A stretch of 64,000 nucleotides of DNA from a virus (IMGVR_UViG_3300002835_000030:1-64000); one strand, 5' to 3'; counted from the first letter of the stretch, positions 41,037 to 61,231 are shown. Notes: generated by a model not told the origin, from the letters alone. Translations and numbers: made by a program.

Positions 41037-44000
41037 ATGCCTGCATCCGTAGAAGAAATAAGAGAATATTTAGAAGGATATGATGAACAAAAATATATTG
41101 TGGGGATTGAATCTTCTTACAGAGACAACAAAATTCATTTAATAGTTCACGACCCTGAGAATGGTAAATCTATTGAAAAACATAGACTTAAACCATTCCT
41201 ATGGATGAAATCGCCAGATATGACTATATTTTATGGTGGTGATAGGAGAACATTAAAAAGTAAAATGAGGGAATATAAAATTAAATTTATTCCTTTATCT
41301 ACTGAAGATGAAAATGGTGAGAATGTTTCTCGTTTAGAAAACGGATATAAATTTTTAGTACAATGTAGAGGTACGTATGGTGACTTACTTAACTTCTTTA
41401 AAGAGGGGGGTATGGGTGTTTACGATGAAGAATACAGAAGTAATTTCTTAGCGATAAGCCCTACAGAACAATTTTTAATACAAACAGGTAAAAGATTGTT
41501 TAAGGGTATGGAAGATTATAATGAAGTTCACAGACTTTCATTTGACTTAGAAACAACTGGTTTAGATCCTCACGTATGTAGAATATTTCAGATAGGTGTA
41601 AAAGACAATAGAGGATTTCAACACGTACTTTCAATAGACGGTAATGATGATGAATCCTTAGACGATAGAGAATCTGAGGCAATAGTCACATTTTTTAAAA
41701 TTATTAATCACCTAAAACCATCAATTATATCAGGTTATAACTCTGAAAACTTTGACTGGTATTTCTTTGTTGTTAGATGTGAGAAGTTAGGTATTAATAT
41801 AGAAAAGATTGCAAAGACATTGGGTCCAATACCATTTTATAGAAAGAAACAAACACTTAAGATGGGACCTGAGATGGAATACTATGAACAAACACATATG
41901 TGGGGTTATAACATTATGGATGTTTATCACGCAGTTCGTAGGGCACAGGCAATCAATTCGTCTATAAAACAGGCGGGTCTAAAATATATTACAAAATATT
42001 CTAATGCCGCCAAACCTAATCGAGTATACGTACAAGGTGATAAAATAGGTAAAACATACGCAGATAAAGAAAATGATTACTGGTTAAATGAAGAAAATGG
42101 TGAGTGGGGTATAATAAAAGATAATGTCTTACCTGAAGGTATTACTAAACTAAAAGGGTGTGATATCGTAGAAAGATATCTAATAGACGATTTATGGGAA
42201 ACTGAAAAGGTAGATGATATCTTTAATCAGGCAACATATCTTTTATCTAAGGTATTACCTACATCATTTATGAGATCATCCACTATGGGTACTGCGGCAA
42301 CTTGGAAATTACTGATGTTGGGTTGGTATTATAAGAATGGTGTTGCAATCCCTCATACATTAGATAATAGAAGATTTATCGGTGGATTATCAAAACTATT
42401 AGAAGTAGGATATAGTCAAAATGTTGTTAAATTTGACTTTGCGTCACTATACCCATCAATTCAATTAACACATAATGTTTTTACTGATTGTGATGTTATG
42501 GGGGCAATGAGAGGATTATTACAATACAACTACGACTATCGTAACAAATATAAAGAACTTAAAAACGAATATGCGGAAAAGGGAGATAAAGAGAAATCAG
42601 AATATTACGATAAAAAACAATTACCATTAAAGATTCTTAACAATGGTATGTTCGGTTCTATATCTGCACCAAACGTATTCCCATGGGGTGACACAGATAT
42701 GGGTGAAAAAATTACTTGTAGTGCGAGACAATATCTTAGACATATGATACGTTTTTTCAATTCTAAGGGATTTAAACCGTTAGTAGGGGATTCAGTAACT
42801 TATGACACACCAATTTATGTTAGATATAAGACAGATAAACAATGTATTGATATAATACCAATATGTGACTTATTTAATGAAAATTCTGAATTTTTAGATA
42901 ATGAGAAATTAAGAGACTTTGAAGAGAAACAATTTGAGGTTTTAACTCGTAATGGTTGGAAGGAAATAAAATATGTATATCGTCATGAAACTGATAAAAA
43001 TATTCATAGAATAACTACTAAGGATAGGTTGTTAAATGTTACTGAGGATCATTCATTATTTCAAAATGGTATAGAGATAAAACCTTCTTCATTAAAAAGA
43101 ACAGATAAAATCGATATTTATGAATTACCATTCAATAATGATCCAACAATAGAAATAAATGAGGAAGTAGCATTTTTATATGGTTTTTTCTTAGGTGATG
43201 GTTCATCTATATGTTCGAGTAGAAAACAAAAATATAAATCACGTAAAACGGGTATAGTAAATTATAATAAAGGAAAAAGAAGTGATTGGAAAATTTCTAA
43301 TACGAGAATAGAATTATTAGAAAAACTACAACAAATTCTAAAAAATGAATTCTCAATAGAAGGAATTATTAAAGATTACACGAAATCATCGGGAGTATAT
43401 AATTTAGTGGTTCATAATAGTGTATTTACTAAAACTTTTTGTGAAAACTTTTACACTTCTTATAGAGAAAAGAAAATTCCAATGATAATATTGAATTCTA
43501 CAAAAGAAATAAAAATGTCATTTATAAATGGTGTTTTTAACTCTGATGGTTACGGTGATACTATTGAAACGTGTTCAGATATAGGTATGAAGTCACAAGT
43601 GGTAATGTCAGGAATTTCATTACTTTTAAAAGAATTAGATATCGAATATAAAATTAAAACCAGAAAAGATAAACAAAATTTTATTAATTTTAATCTAAAG
43701 AATGGTAATCGTAATAATTCATCTTTCATTAATAAAACTAAAAAGAAAAGTGATGAAGTATGGAAAAATGAAACTATTATAAATAAAGATAAAAATAATT
43801 ATGTTTACGACATTTCAACAGAAGACGGAACTTTTGTTTGTGGAATAGGTGGGATTATTGCACACAATACCGATGGATTTAACTTCTCAGTACCTAAAGA
43901 TGTGGATAAATATGTTTATACTTCTAATGGTAACCATAGATTTAATAAGTTAGGTAAAACCTATAAAGGTATGGGTGCGGTTGTCGCAGAATATAATGAC

Positions 44001-46896: not shown

Positions 46897-47128
46897 CTAA
46901 TTCTACCGCCTCATTTATTGTCTGAAATGATTTTTCAGGTAAAAACGCAGTTTTTTCAATTAAAATTGCCGGTAAATATTCGTTATTTACTTTCTTAGAG
47001 AATTTTTCATATAGTTCTTCGTGTTTATCAACATCTAACTCAATAAAATCAATATTATTTTCTTGTAATTGATTTTTTAAGTTGTCGCAATGTGGACATC
47101 CTTTCATTGAAAATACTTTAACTTTCAT
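46871..47128 (-). CDS. Glutaredoxin-like protein
   Basis: A thiol-disulfide oxidoreductase, 85 residues, of the usual glutaredoxin size. The active site CPHC is at residues 11-14 in VFSMKGCPHCDNLK, followed by VKFIELDVD-like strand (IDFIELDVDKHEEL) and the cis-Pro region EYLPAILI. Phages use such proteins to supply electrons to ribonucleotide reductase, but no reductase is in the window. A TATAAATA octamer 9 bases before its ATG lies in the 3' end of the helicase gene. Convergent overlap with the previous gene. Confidence 0.85.
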   Translation of the reverse strand: MKVKVFSMKGCPHCDNLKNQLQENNIDFIELDVDKHEELYEKFSKKVNNEYLPAILIEKTAFLPEKSFQTINEAVELVKKHLQGL

Positions 47129-50100
47129 CTTCTATTTTATTTATAAATTCATTTATTATGTCATCTTCACCCATAATGGTTCCAATAATCTTTTTCTTTT
47201 CATTTAGTATATCCCATACTAAAGTATCAATAGTATTATACATTAACATATAATAAATATTAACAGTTTCCTTTTGCCCTATTCTATAACAATTATGTAC
47301 GTTATAGATACCAACCACAAAGGAATTATCATCTTCTACCGATAAATCATAAACTCTTTCTTCAGACTTTTTAGGTTTACTTATATTAATACTTTTAATT
47401 GGGTATGTTATATATCCATCTAATAGTTTTATCCTTTTATTTTTTACTTCATCTAAACTATATTCAATACTATAATTATTCTCACCTTTATTCGATAATG
47501 AAATTGGTCTACCTAAATTACAATTATATCTAATTAACTGAGATATTAATTTAATCGAAGAAGTTGTTGCTTGTTGAGTATTTTTCCTCCTATAACCATC
47601 CCCATGATAATACCCTTTTAGTAAACTATCTAATTGTTCTTCATTTAACTCATCAACCCAAATAGGTAATTGTTTTTCATATACTATCCCACCAAACCAA
47701 TCTTTAAAATTATATGCAAGCTCTTTAGAATGTATTGTACATGATTTGACATTTTTAGTATCGACATGGGTACTATGTTTTTCAATACCAAAACTTTCTT
47801 TAATAATTTTAATAATATATTCAGAAGCATCATACATTTTAGAGTTAGTGATTTTTTGACATATGTTAACGGTTGATGATTTAATGTCCGAAATAACTGT
47901 CCACCCTTCAGCAATGAAGAAACCAAAAGCATATAATAAATCATTTGTTAATTCTACTTTTTCTGGTAAGTTGACTAATCTTCCGTTAGTCTGTTCGACA
48001 TTAAAATTATTTTTAAATGTGTTAGAAACGTATGAGTTAACATTTAAATATTTTTTTCTTTCTAATGGTTGTTTAACCGATTTAATTGTTAAAAAATGAT
48101 TCCTAATATTGATGTCTTTTGCTTCTATCCACTTAAAAGAGTCTTCTTTATTATCATAGACATATAATTTATGATCTTCTGTAACGGATAATACATCATT
48201 ATAACCAAACGCATTTATATCATATCTTAATTTTTTACGTTCTAAATGGCTACTTTTACCGATAACCGGTTTAAAATTACCTTTATGTGTATATACAAAA
48301 TCACCAATATTAATATCCTCAATTACTTTATATCCATTTTCAGTTAACACCCATTGACCACCAAAAATACACCTATCTTCCGCTTGTTCGTGATTTCCAG
48401 GAACCCAATCTAATGAGTTCATAATAACAATTTCTGCCTTAGTTAGAGTTAATCCCACACCTGCCGCCTTAATTTGCCCAATAAATACTTTACAGCTATC
48501 ATCTTCTTGAAATCTATCTACAGATAATTGTTTTTGTTTATCAGACATACCACCTCTAACACATACCGCCTTATTACCGAAGTGTCTGTTAAATGCATCC
48601 ATCTCATCATTAAAGTTACAAAATATAATAACTTTTTTATTTAACTCTAACGCTTCTTCCACCTTTTCTATCGAATAGGGTACTGTTTCCATCGCAATAA
48701 AAGTCCTAAGTAATGTCATCTCCACAAGGTCTTTTGCAGGATTCCCCTTTTTCCCCTCTAAACGTCTTTTTTCTAAATAATTTTCCCAAACTGATTTATA
48801 CTCATCTACATTTTGTAATTCCAAATAAACTGGAGTTATTAACTTAGGCGGTAAATCTAAGACATCTTCTTTTTTTCTTCTTAATATTGTTCTTTTTGTT
48901 TTAGACGATAACTCATCTAAATTAGATGCCCCTTTAGTGACCCATACATATTTACCACCCTTTCTAAATCTCATACCTTCACAATAAGTTTTAGCGTAGT
49001 GAACCCAATTGTTTGTTATTGGTGAATCAATAATAGATAATAAATTATAGTAATCCATAGGTCTATTTGCGATAGGTGTGCCAGTTAATAACCATACTCT
49101 TTCACATGAAAAATTCTTAGATAAATCTTTTAATATTGCACCTCTGTTTGATTTGTGATTTTTAACATAATGCGCTTCATCTAATATTAATAGATCGGGA
49201 TTGAAGTCTGCAATTTCTCTCCTCAATTCCCACTCTTCGTATTCTTTATTTTTTTCTTTAACTGTATGGAAATTTTTGAGGATATCATAGTTAATGATTG
49301 TGAATCTCGCAGGATCCCAATAAGATCCTGTAATTATTGATACATCATCACAAAAATTTTGTACTTCCCTCATCCAATTTATTTTGAGTGATGAAGGACA
49401 AATTATTAAAACTCTTTCTGCGTTACATTCTAATGCTGCGACTATGGATTGGTATGTGTTGTGAGTTACTATACCATGTTCTGTAACATATAAGTGATCT
49501 TCTGCTGCAACTTGAATACATACCGCCTCACCCTGTTTTTCTAATTTTATATCTTTTATATATCTACCTATCTTATATTTTTTCGGTGGATTATATTCGT
49601 CAGATTTTCTTTTAAGTCTGAAAGGATTCATACCTTCAGGTAATTTTATATTAAGTCTATAGTTTATTCTACCCTTTACTATAGTACCGTCTTCTTTTTT
49701 GTAAGATCCAACCCTACTTTTTTTTCTAACAATTCCACCTAAAGAATGTACTATTTCGGCAACATCATCGGCTAATTTTTCAGACACTGTTGAGTATTCT
49801 GTCCCAGTAAAATTACCGTTTTTTGATTTCATACAGTGACCATCAGTATCCATAAGTCCTTGTAGAATAGAGAGTCTATCCTCTATTGAGGAATATTTAT
49901 AGATATCAGGAATAAATTTAGAGTATGATAATTTACCATTTAAACCTAATGATGTAATTTCTTTTTTAATGGTATTAATTAAATTGATTCTATTACCATT
50001 TTGTTCTTTACCCTCATTAATAAATTGATTAGTAAATATTTCATCAAAATCATTTCCGTCTAATAAAATTCTAATATAACCTGAATTAGATATATGGTCA

Positions 50101-51101
50101 TCACCAATGATAACACCTAACAAATATGGGTCAATAGGTAATTTATCATCATTACTAAATTGGATTGTCTTCACTATAGGTATTTGCCACTTATTTTGAC
50201 CATTATTAGTTTTATAATAAGTTTTAAATTTATAAGATCTTTTTTTATTCCACCCTTTACCATACTGTTCTAACTCTAATTTTTCATCAATCATTTGTTC
50301 AACACTTAGTGTGTGATACTTATTTTCTCTATTTTTAGAGTTTTCTCCACTATTATTACTACTTACAGTCCATAAATGTTCTTTACAACATAACGTAGAA
50401 TACCCATCATTAAATGTTACCCTATATAAATCCTTAACCCCTTGTGGGTATACCGCCTCAACTAAAGTAGGTTTTCCATCAGAACCGATAACATAATCAC
50501 CTGATTTTATATTACCTATTTTTTCTCTTCCATAGGGTGTAAATACTTCAGAATTAACACACTGGGCTTTACCTAAACCCATGTCGTCCGCCAAAATACA
50601 CTTTTTCTTCTTCATTAAGAACTTAATCCCATCCTCTTGATGTTTAAATGCCTTCCACCCTCTTTTATCTAATTTTTGATACTTATCAAAATCAATATCG
50701 ATTTCTAATTCTTCATAATGAATATCATCTAATATTTGTGTTTTAGGTATCCATAATAATTTAACATCCTTTTGGTTTTTATATAACTTACATATAACGT
50801 GTATCGCTTTCTCCGATTCCGCCAATAAAGTTTCTAGAAATATTTTTTTAGGTGTTATTTTTAATTTGTGTTCTTCTTGTAATTCTTCAGAAAAATAATT
50901 AGTTAATTCTATAACTTTATTTAATACCTTTGGTTCAAAGGTAAAATAATTTTTTACATAGTTTGACTGATTATTAGTAAGAAAATATTTTTTTTCGGTT
51001 TCTTTTTTTTTGCGCATGTAGTTAATATAAGGGTTTTTACCCTCATATGTCATAAGTAAATCTTCACTATCGAGATTTTTAATATCCTTAACATCCAACA
51101 T
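47118..51101 (-). CDS. SNF2-type DNA helicase/translocase with two inteins
   Basis: A dsDNA translocase of the SNF2/SMARCAL1 kind, possibly remodelling forks or annealing strands in phage replication. The 1327 residues include two inteins; the spliced protein would be 597 residues. Motif I is DDMGLGK-T, split by the first intein; LILDEAHYVKN (motif II) and LLTGTPI (motif III) are intact; motif VI is QAEDR-CYRIGQ, split by the second. The N-terminal 120 residues are not recognised. Catalysis requires both splicing events. It overlaps the glutaredoxin start by 11 bases. Confidence 0.92.
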   Translation of the reverse strand: MLDVKDIKNLDSEDLLMTYEGKNPYINYMRKKKETEKKYFLTNNQSNYVKNYFTFEPKVLNKVIELTNYFSEELQEEHKLKITPKKIFLETLLAESEKAIHVICKLYKNQKDVKLLWIPKTQILDDIHYEELEIDIDFDKYQKLDKRGWKAFKHQEDGIKFLMKKKKCILADDMGLGKAQCVNSEVFTPYGREKIGNIKSGDYVIGSDGKPTLVEAVYPQGVKDLYRVTFNDGYSTLCCKEHLWTVSSNNSGENSKNRENKYHTLSVEQMIDEKLELEQYGKGWNKKRSYKFKTYYKTNNGQNKWQIPIVKTIQFSNDDKLPIDPYLLGVIIGDDHISNSGYIRILLDGNDFDEIFTNQFINEGKEQNGNRINLINTIKKEITSLGLNGKLSYSKFIPDIYKYSSIEDRLSILQGLMDTDGHCMKSKNGNFTGTEYSTVSEKLADDVAEIVHSLGGIVRKKSRVGSYKKEDGTIVKGRINYRLNIKLPEGMNPFRLKRKSDEYNPPKKYKIGRYIKDIKLEKQGEAVCIQVAAEDHLYVTEHGIVTHNTYQSIVAALECNAERVLIICPSSLKINWMREVQNFCDDVSIITGSYWDPARFTIINYDILKNFHTVKEKNKEYEEWELRREIADFNPDLLILDEAHYVKNHKSNRGAILKDLSKNFSCERVWLLTGTPIANRPMDYYNLLSIIDSPITNNWVHYAKTYCEGMRFRKGGKYVWVTKGASNLDELSSKTKRTILRRKKEDVLDLPPKLITPVYLELQNVDEYKSVWENYLEKRRLEGKKGNPAKDLVEMTLLRTFIAMETVPYSIEKVEEALELNKKVIIFCNFNDEMDAFNRHFGNKAVCVRGGMSDKQKQLSVDRFQEDDSCKVFIGQIKAAGVGLTLTKAEIVIMNSLDWVPGNHEQAEDRCIFGGQWVLTENGYKVIEDINIGDFVYTHKGNFKPVIGKSSHLERKKLRYDINAFGYNDVLSVTEDHKLYVYDNKEDSFKWIEAKDINIRNHFLTIKSVKQPLERKKYLNVNSYVSNTFKNNFNVEQTNGRLVNLPEKVELTNDLLYAFGFFIAEGWTVISDIKSSTVNICQKITNSKMYDASEYIIKIIKESFGIEKHSTHVDTKNVKSCTIHSKELAYNFKDWFGGIVYEKQLPIWVDELNEEQLDSLLKGYYHGDGYRRKNTQQATTSSIKLISQLIRYNCNLGRPISLSNKGENNYSIEYSLDEVKNKRIKLLDGYITYPIKSINISKPKKSEERVYDLSVEDDNSFVVGIYNVHNCYRIGQKETVNIYYMLMYNTIDTLVWDILNEKKKIIGTIMGEDDIINEFINKIEDES
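47138..47145 (-). promoter_or_regulatory. Late promoter octamer before the glutaredoxin gene
   Basis: TATAAATA on the minus strand, 9 bases before the ATG and inside the last codons of the helicase gene. The same octamer lies 7-11 bases from four other start codons in the window. Confidence 0.4.
47292..48371 (-). mobile_element. Intein 2 in helicase motif VI, LAGLIDADG type
   Basis: A 360-residue class 1 intein between Arg and Cys of EDR-CYRIGQ. Cys1 opens it (CIFGGQWVL), block B is TEDH (T64, H67), and it ends YNVHN with Cys +1 from the extein. Two LAGLIDADG-type helices are seen (AFGFFIAEGW and LKGYYHGDGY), so it is likely an active homing endonuclease. Motif VI supplies the arginine finger of the ATPase, so splicing is needed for activity. 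Confidence 0.9.
49458..50567 (-). mobile_element. Intein 1 in helicase motif I, class 3 features
   Basis: A 370-residue intein between Lys and Thr of the Walker A GLGK-T. Residue 1 is Ala (AQCVNSEVF), not Cys or Ser, because the next extein residue must be Thr to restore GKT. It shows the class 3 WCT set: Trp66 two residues after His64 (EHLW, block B), Cys350 at block F position 4 (AVCIQV), and extein +1 Thr after VTHN. A LAGLIDADG endonuclease is present (YLLGVIIGDD; ILQGLMDTDG). Class 3 inteins use the block F Cys in place of residue 1. Confidence 0.88.
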
Positions 51102-58375: not shown

Positions 58376-61231
58376 ATGGCATCAACAGACAGAATTTTTG
58401 TAAGTCCCGGAGTATTCACATCAGAAAAGGACTTAACATTCGTAACGAGACAAGTCGGTGTAACAACATTAGGATTGTTAGGGGAAGTCCCTAAAGGTCC
58501 TGCGTTTGAACCGGTATTTGTTTCTAACTATGGTGAATTTATAAGTTATTTTGGAGGACTTAATCCTGAAAAATTTAAGGGTAGTGGTTTTCACAAATAC
58601 GAATTAAATTATATCGCTAAATCATTTTTAACCCAAACCAACCAATTGTATGTAAGTAGAGTTTTAGGTTTATCTGGTTATGATGCGGGTAATGCGTGGT
58701 CAATCACATTGGATTCCGCTGAGGATCCTAATACGGTAGGTAGTGCATCTACAGTTACAGGTACGTTATTAACATATACCGCTAAAACAACAGGTAATCC
58801 AGTTACATTAAGTTGGAATAACGCTAACTTAGAGGCATTATATAATGACGGTCAATTTTCACTATCAACATTAGGATTATTAAATACTGGACAGACTATT
58901 TCAATATCTAACCCAATATATGTTAAAACAGGATGTGACTTTAGTGGGGCAACTTTCGATATGGAAGTTATTGCCACAGGAACTAGTGGTGGATTTGTAA
59001 CGGGTGTGACTAGTGGTACTGTAGTTAGTTATACCGCAACTTGTTTAACGGACATTGATGGTAGTGTTATTACAACATTGAGATCAAGAGGTGATTATGA
59101 CGCAAATGAAGAATTAGTATTTGATGTTACAGGTGCAACTGACGCAGTTATGAGTAACACATCGAGTATTAAATCTAACGCATTGGCGTCATTCACAATT
59201 AATGGTACTGCAAGTAATGGTAATACATTTAGTTATGATGTATCAATGGATAGAACTAAAAAGAATTTTTTACCTAGAGTATTTGGTAGTTCAACACAAG
59301 ATAAAGAAACAGAATTATGGGTTGAGGAAATCTATACAAACGTATTGGAGGACTTAATTGGAAAAAGTCAAGTTAGAGGTTTAGATGTAACTTTCAATAG
59401 TATTTCAGGAACGTCAACAAATAACTTATCAAACTATAAAGAACAATGGAAATCTGCTGTATCACCTTGGGTTCTTTCAGAATTAAAAGGTACTGGTACC
59501 GGCGCAACATTACAAAGACTTTTTAGATTTGTAACTATTTCTGATGGTAATGCGGCTAATCAAGATGTTAAATTCTCAATTGTCAATATACAACCTGATA
59601 ATAAAACATTTGATTTGTTAGTTAGAAATTTTAACGATACAGACGCCAACCCATCTGTAATCGAAAAATTCTCTTCGTTGAATTTAGATGTTAATACAAC
59701 AGGATTCATTGGGAGGAAAATAGGTACTAACGACGGGGAATACCCATTAAGAAGTAAGTACATAATGGTTGAGTTCTACGATAATGACATACAATCTTCA
59801 TATTTAGATGATCCTGATTTAGTTAATCACTTTCCTGCGGGATTTGAGGGTGTATTAAATAGAACTTACATTGGAACTAGAACTTCATTATCACCTAAGA
59901 TTGAATACAAAACAGAATATACAGATTTTAATACTTCTAAATTAAGAAAAACTTATTTAGGGTTAAATAGTGATATCGGAGTAGATCAAGACTTCTTCGA
60001 TTATAAAGGTAAAAACGCAGTTAACAACGGAGTATTCACAGGCAAAACTGATGGATTCCACTTAGATGTAAACGCAAATGGTGCGACAGTTGATTTAGGA
60101 AATAATAGTTATGTTCCTACACTACAAGTTGGTGTGTCAGCGTTCACATCAGACGCAGGATTAGTAGGTGGACCTTATGAGAAGTTAGCGTCAAGAAAAT
60201 TCACATTCACATCATTCGGTGGATGGGATGGATGGGATGAGTATAGAACTCAAAGAACTAATGGTGACTCTTATACTAAGACAGGAACCAAAGGTTCTAT
60301 AGGTTTAACAAACGGAACGTTCTCTACTTATGTAACATCTGAAGGTGATGATGGAATTACTTCTGACTACTACGCATACTTAGATGGTATTTACACTTTT
60401 AACAATCCTGAAGCGGTTAATATTAACGTATTCGCAACACCAGGTATTGATTTAAGAGACAATATCAGTTTGATTGAAAATGCGGTAGATATGGTAGAAG
60501 TTGATAGAGCGGATTCACTATATGTAATCACAACACCCGATACTGATGCAGATGGAATTGCGATAACTCCATCAGAAGCGGTAGACATTATAGAAGATTC
60601 GGGAATCGATTCTAATTATTCTGCCACATACTGGCCATGGTTACAGATGAATGATACTGAAAATAACAGATATGTATGGTTACCACCGACATTAGAAGTT
60701 ATGAGAAACATCGCCCTTACGGATAACGTAGCGTTCCCTTGGTTCGCAGCGGCAGGTTTAAATAGAGGAACTACAAACGCAATCAAAGCGAGAGTGAAAC
60801 TTAAATTAGATGAAAGAGATGACTTATACGAAGGTAGAATTAACCCAATGGCGACATTCTCAGACGTAGGAGTTGTAATATTTGGTAATAAAACTTTACA
60901 AGTTAAAGAAACCGCACTTAACAGAATCAATGTTAGAAGATTGTTGTTACAGGCGAGAAAACTTATTTCAGCGGTGTCAATCAGATTGTTATTCGAACAA
61001 AATGATGATGTTGTAAGAAATCAGTTTTTAAGTTTGGTTAACCCAATATTGGATAACATTAGAAAAGAGAGAGGTTTAACTGACTTTAGAGTTGTATTAG
61101 ATGACACACCAGAGTCTATTGATAGAAACGAACTTAATGGTAGAATCTTTATTAAACCAACAAGATCGTTAGAATTCATTTCAATTGAGTTCAACATCAC
61201 CAACACTGGAGCATCTTTCGATGATATTTAA
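58376..61231 (+). CDS. Tail sheath protein, gp18-like
   Basis: The contractile sheath subunit. The start ASTDRIFVSPGVFTSEKDLT is the classical sheath opening (SPGVYxxExD), with GLLGEVPKGPAFEPVFVSN close behind. The C-terminal region has NVAFPWFAAAGLNRG and DLYEGRINPMATF, then a KTLQVKETALNRINVRRLL motif, all standard for T4-like sheath proteins. At 951 residues it is much longer than T4 gp18 (659), owing to large middle insertions. The 144-base gap upstream is very AT-rich. A strong terminator follows. Confidence 0.93.
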   Translation: MASTDRIFVSPGVFTSEKDLTFVTRQVGVTTLGLLGEVPKGPAFEPVFVSNYGEFISYFGGLNPEKFKGSGFHKYELNYIAKSFLTQTNQLYVSRVLGLSGYDAGNAWSITLDSAEDPNTVGSASTVTGTLLTYTAKTTGNPVTLSWNNANLEALYNDGQFSLSTLGLLNTGQTISISNPIYVKTGCDFSGATFDMEVIATGTSGGFVTGVTSGTVVSYTATCLTDIDGSVITTLRSRGDYDANEELVFDVTGATDAVMSNTSSIKSNALASFTINGTASNGNTFSYDVSMDRTKKNFLPRVFGSSTQDKETELWVEEIYTNVLEDLIGKSQVRGLDVTFNSISGTSTNNLSNYKEQWKSAVSPWVLSELKGTGTGATLQRLFRFVTISDGNAANQDVKFSIVNIQPDNKTFDLLVRNFNDTDANPSVIEKFSSLNLDVNTTGFIGRKIGTNDGEYPLRSKYIMVEFYDNDIQSSYLDDPDLVNHFPAGFEGVLNRTYIGTRTSLSPKIEYKTEYTDFNTSKLRKTYLGLNSDIGVDQDFFDYKGKNAVNNGVFTGKTDGFHLDVNANGATVDLGNNSYVPTLQVGVSAFTSDAGLVGGPYEKLASRKFTFTSFGGWDGWDEYRTQRTNGDSYTKTGTKGSIGLTNGTFSTYVTSEGDDGITSDYYAYLDGIYTFNNPEAVNINVFATPGIDLRDNISLIENAVDMVEVDRADSLYVITTPDTDADGIAITPSEAVDIIEDSGIDSNYSATYWPWLQMNDTENNRYVWLPPTLEVMRNIALTDNVAFPWFAAAGLNRGTTNAIKARVKLKLDERDDLYEGRINPMATFSDVGVVIFGNKTLQVKETALNRINVRRLLLQARKLISAVSIRLLFEQNDDVVRNQFLSLVNPILDNIRKERGLTDFRVVLDDTPESIDRNELNGRIFIKPTRSLEFISIEFNITNTGASFDDI

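Follow-up and report, generated by a model that had tools for sequence, protein, structure and literature searches.

A predicted class 3 intein at the Walker A site of a tailed-phage SNF2-type helicase and the co-variation of its first residue with block B

A stretch of viral DNA of 64,000 nucleotides (IMGVR_UViG_3300002835_000030:1-64000; hereafter the window) very probably encodes a mobile class 3 intein that carries a LAGLIDADG homing endonuclease and interrupts the SNF2-type helicase of a tailed phage just after the Walker A Lys, ahead of the Thr. Residue 1 of class 3 inteins and position 7 of block B (B:7) probably compensate for one another at the N-scissile bond, with about 12 residue types at position 1, large ones being matched by Gly at B:7 and Gly1 by Asp. 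The helicase gene and its two inteins comprise the following features.

47118-51101, minus strand: ORF of the SNF2-type helicase, 1327 aa as encoded and 597 aa once both inteins are removed
49458-50567, minus strand: predicted class 3 intein of 370 aa in the Walker A motif, between K178 and the next Thr, delimited by the ORF, templates and empty alleles
50565-50567, minus strand: intein residue 1, Ala, not a nucleophile, in the register given by templates and empty alleles
50385-50387, minus strand: Cys61 at B:7, co-varying with residue 1 across the family
50376-50378, minus strand: His64, the block B His (B:10)
50370-50372, minus strand: Trp66 (B:12), W of the WCT triplet
50100-50123, minus strand: LAGLIDADG motif 1, LLGVIIGD, intein residues 149-156
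49839-49868, minus strand: LAGLIDADG motif 2, ILQGLMDTDG, intein residues 234-243
49518-49520, minus strand: Cys350 (F:4), C of WCT, predicted initiating nucleophile
49464-49466, minus strand: Thr368 (G:5), T of WCT, in VTHN
49458-49463, minus strand: His369-Asn370, the C-terminal splice residues
49455-49457, minus strand: Thr+1, C-extein nucleophile and Walker A Thr
47292-48371, minus strand: second intein of the ORF, 360 aa, at EQAEDR/CYRIGQ in helicase motif VI, predicted class 1 (C1, TxxH, Asp at F:4, HN/C)

The ORF contains both domains expected of an SNF2-type helicase, the host named in the original prediction: SNF2-rel_dom (PF00176, 1.1e-27), which is interrupted by the insert sequence, and Helicase_C (PF00271, 4.6e-14). 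The first intein occupies ORF residues 179-548, with no stop within 49458-50567, and its flanks read GLGK/A1...N370/TYQ, an insertion point that has been termed the 'classic' P-loop insertion (PMC5050341). Deletion of residues 179-548 and 911-1270 leaves a 597-aa helicase that reads ADDMGLGK/TYQSIV and EQAEDR/CYRIGQ at the two joints. The same length had been given beforehand with no mention of the second intein, which, to judge from that figure, had evidently been subtracted. Both predicted spliced junctions occur uninterrupted in natural alleles. Many intein-free relatives of the helicase, up to 88% identical, have the GLGKTYQ motif uninterrupted and read GLGKTYQS, that is, the predicted spliced product (MGLGKTYQSIVAALE); most of the relatives with uninterrupted GLGKTYQ read EQAEDRAYRIGQ at the second intein site.

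A phmmer search of the 370-aa intein against the PDB retrieved native gp41-1 and its WCT-engineered form together with the class 3 inteins MchDnaB1 (6rix/6riy) and MsmDnaB1 (6bs8), all in the A1 register (gp41-1_WCT, 1.7e-10; MchDnaB1, 5.7e-5; MsmDnaB1, 1e-4). The alignments to the two described class 3 inteins run without offset, residue 8 falling on residue 8 and C350 on C124 of MchDnaB1, so that the A1 start is fixed independently of the Walker A argument, advanced in the original prediction, that only this start rejoins GLGK to TYQ; the intein-free alleles bear out the same joint. The matches are far beyond chance, and many other viral contigs carry near-identical and 56-73% identical inteins at the same site. 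Templates, these copies and uninterrupted GLGKTYQ alleles agree in placing the insert after the Walker A Lys and before its Thr. An AlphaFold2 model of the intein with short exteins (pLDDT 89.3, pTM 0.88) has the intein-endonuclease PI-SceI as its best Foldseek match and gp41-1_WCT, gp41-1, MchDnaB1 and MsmDnaB1 as its best mini-intein matches.

The assignment to class 3, made from the sequence, is well supported, as had been proposed. The intein has Trp at B:12 (W66, within EHLW), Cys at F:4 (C350), Thr at G:5 (T368) and an HN/T junction, and Ala1 stands, in the register given by templates and empty alleles, where class 1 requires Cys, Ser or Thr. The Trp and Cys of the triplet had been correctly located at the outset, but its Thr had been equated with Thr+1. 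By definition, the Thr of the triplet is G:5 (motif C1:5), the residue preceding the penultimate His, and the +1 residue is the ordinary C-extein nucleophile (PMC7891396, PMC3196547); the right Thr is nonetheless present inside VTHN.

Scans of viral contigs and phage records yielded 120 distinct inteins, in all of which H64, C350 and T368 are invariant, and B:12 is W in 112 and F in 8. These relatives were gathered by their likeness to class 3 sequences, so selection accounts in part for the constancy of C350 and T368, and an unvarying WCT by itself weighs less as evidence than the variability of residue 1. That residue takes nine states while the F:4 Cys is retained (A 60, C 19, G 14, M 7, S 7, F 6, L 5, E 1, Q 1), and a tree built without residues 1-4 requires at least 7 changes of it among 26 distinct same-site inteins. 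Because it can be Phe, Met, Gly or Glu, residue 1 is not an obligatory nucleophile. In a tree of similarity-collected sequences with a tiny outgroup and long branches, 71 WCT-bearing relatives are placed apart (98/92) from two inteins of this genome that belong to class 1 by sequence. The original description of class 3 as a rare type does not hold: 1,701 class 3 inteins, 82.5% of them with LAGLIDADG motifs, had been counted in nr by 2020 (PMC7891396), and 756 phage records are matched by the present intein, which is thus one more ordinary member of the class.

The Cys at F:4 has been shown to initiate splicing in the class 3 group of MchDnaB1, MsmDnaB1 (DnaBi1) and MP-Be DnaB (PMC7664689, PMC5222942). 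If splicing follows the route of characterised class 3 inteins, Cys350, positioned by His64 and Thr368, would directly attack the Lys(-1)-Ala1 bond to form a block F thioester, from which the N-extein would pass to Thr+1; cyclisation of Asn370 and an O-N shift would then yield GLGKTYQ and restore the ATP-binding loop. Residue 1 would play no nucleophilic part in this path, and may instead pack against B:7 (Cys61) or share hydrogen bonding with it.

Two other chemistries were weighed against this class 3 path. The occurrence of a Cys in a CVNSEV-like context two residues past Ala1 might suggest a class 1 intein that begins at Cys3 (GLGKAQ/CVNSEV) and leaves GLGKAQTYQ after splicing. This start fails, however, because Cys3 is not conserved: position 3 varies among 72 relatives (P, S, A, I, D, C, F and others). 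It would also leave block A two residues too short relative to all templates, the intein-free alleles read GLGKTYQ rather than GLGKAQTYQ, and F:4 is Cys where class 1 has Asp; we regard it as extremely unlikely. An equally improbable reading is a class 2-type reaction, in which Thr+1 would attack the N-scissile bond directly and C350 would not act as a nucleophile. Ala at residue 1 is indeed shared with the KlbA class 2 inteins, but all class 2 inteins known by 2014 were KlbA orthologues with Ser at G:6, Asp at F:4 and Cys+1 (PMC4031507), against His at G:6, Cys at F:4 and Thr+1 in the present case.

It is also very unlikely that the intein has decayed and no longer splices, leaving a broken helicase, a fate for which the putative class 3 intein Arsp-FB24 Arth_1007, a pseudogene, offers a precedent (PMC3196547). 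Here the frame is open, every catalytic residue is present, the rest of the extein is conserved, and other contigs carry almost the same intein.

The class 3 intein is also predicted to be mobile. As anticipated, it encodes a two-motif LAGLIDADG endonuclease (LAGLIDADG_3, PF14528, 2.2e-10), and acidic residues are kept in both motifs. Its presence among close relatives of the helicase gene is sporadic, and intein-free alleles of the predicted target site of the endonuclease exist. Relative to the present sequence, L005 is 72% identical in the intein and 54% in the C-terminal extein part, while the respective values for L057 are 56% and 81%; such crossing identities are what horizontal movement would give.

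Beyond the two inteins of the helicase, both of which are also present in L020, further elements of the virus were identified.

42792-43868, plus strand: third intein, in the family B DNA polymerase (PolB), between GD and TDG of motif C, predicted class 1 (S1, TxxH, Asp at F:4, AHN/T)
G000:C1 92862-93968 (in L002), plus strand: fourth intein, in the P-loop of a DnaB-like helicase, GVGK/S...THN/TT, with WCT but Ser1
58376-61231: tail sheath gene

The virus record of 128,648 bases contains at least four inteins (PolB, SNF2 twice, DnaB-like helicase), so that inteins assigned by sequence to class 3 and to class 1 share one protein and one genome. The intein of the DnaB-like helicase is about 41% identical to the Walker A intein of the SNF2-type helicase. 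The tail sheath gene identifies the virus as a contractile-tailed phage.

Several known systems resemble the Walker A intein of the SNF2-type helicase. MchDnaB1, MsmDnaB1 and MP-Be DnaB share with it the WCT triplet, a non-nucleophilic residue 1 and the THN end, and the first two also match its structural model; the crystallised ones, however, are mini-inteins in DnaB, whereas the present intein has a LAGLIDADG domain, an SNF2 helicase as its host and Cys at B:7. The class 3 intein of Deinococcus radiodurans Snf2, likened here by description, also has an SNF2-family host and undergoes splicing when placed in a model precursor (PMC3196547). Helicase inteins of Bixzunavirus mycobacteriophages (e.g. 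Pinkcreek gp172), Pseudomonas phage PhiPA3 (gp233) and Brevundimonas phage Papperlapapp are found at the same GK/T or GK/S point, with WCT and a length that accommodates LAGLIDADG, but are only 32-35% identical to the present intein and have A or M at residue 1. The AceL NrdHF class 3 intein has A1, Cys at F:4 and Thr at G:5 in common with it, and its B:7 Ser contacts residue 1 and the scissile bond (PMC7891396); it differs in being split and in having Met at B:12 (MCT). The best PDB sequence match, gp41-1, shares the THN end (PMC12245125) but, with Cys1 and Asp at F:4, belongs to class 1.

Among the sister inteins at the same site, Cys1 occurs in 18 of 66 rows (L008, L019, L021, L024, L025, L027, L053, L046, L057 and others) together with Cys at F:4, Thr at G:5 and Trp or Phe at B:12. 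These sisters fall between the definitions of class 1 and class 3; a class 1-like start is possible for them, and they are natural candidates for dual or switched chemistry. The first 26 sequences had hinted that Cys1 members regain the class 1 (S/T)xxH at B:7, but with more sequences the association of C1 with S/T disappeared (p ~1). Elsewhere in the family, the WCT intein of Mycobacterium phage Phrappuccino gp2 (L123) is followed at +1 by Cys, a residue that class 3 inteins rarely have there in place of Thr or Ser. The name 'DarB-like antirestriction', given to several RefSeq phage proteins that contain this type of intein (H43, H46, H57, H80, H83 and H86), seems to have been passed along among SNF2-like helicases.

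The residue that co-varies with position 1 lies three residues ahead of the block B His. Of all positions, 61 is the one most closely tied to residue 1 by mutual information, in both data sets alike, and among the 66,795 pairs of the non-redundant same-site set this one ranks 4th; in a phylogeny-controlled test of the same-site family, position 61 is the best of 238 columns. When descent was controlled for in the whole set, 11 independent pairs compared large residues at position 1 (F, M, L, E, Q) with Gly at B:7, of which about 10 agree and 0 oppose. The rule was then tested on 142 new inteins from cellular genomes and other viral insertion sites, the cellular class 3 inteins coming from a contig scan with a terminase-type class 3 alignment; a scan of genome contigs with the SNF2-site alignment found no cellular copy. 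In this test set, Gly occupies B:7 in 22 of 23 inteins with a large residue 1 vs 2 of 119 with a small one, Asp and His having joined the 'large' group only after the test set was seen (19 of 19 without them).

Across all 261 inteins, the corresponding figures are 41 of 42 and 11 of 219. Whenever residue 1 is D, E, Q, L, M or F, B:7 is Gly (41 of 41), the sole exception to the large-residue rule being a His1 with Ser. Gly1 is accompanied by Asp at B:7 in 22 of 23 cases, and Ala1 (n=145) mostly by Asp (87) or Cys (42), and by Gly in 3. On the 261-row tree, the large-residue rule gives 16 independent pairs, of which about 14.8 agree and 0 oppose (median p ~6e-5); the Gly1-Asp half points in the same direction but is weaker under phylogenetic control (p 0.0625) and not significant alone. 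L099, an apparent breach of the large-residue rule (L1 with Asp), has an extra block A residue, probably starts with Gly and was omitted from the 261-row test. Recombination of the N-terminal segment could contribute part of the signal, since positions 6, 9, 14 and 59 also give weaker signals with residue 1 in the phylogeny-controlled test.

In the structure of AceL NrdHF, the B:7 Ser lies close enough to hydrogen-bond with the scissile amide and with the carbonyl of residue 1, and the A1G substitution abolishes splicing; the authors of that study call B:7 not conserved in class 3 (PMC7891396). By analogy with this structure, the co-variation is most simply read as residue 1 and B:7 occupying a common pocket next to the scissile bond. 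No report of the residue 1/B:7 rule was found in the literature searched, which covers the founding class 3 papers in part.

The approximately 77 inteins at one insertion site of one helicase amount to a natural mutational scan of residue 1, and indicate that in this same-site family residue 1 is not the chemical trigger but is linked to another residue next to the scissile bond. If true, the pairing would explain why B:7 has appeared 'not conserved' in class 3, may account for the dead A1G mutant of the AceL intein, which has Ser at B:7, and predicts specific double-mutant rescues; if confirmed, it would provide a rule by which class 3 inteins could be fitted to new junctions.
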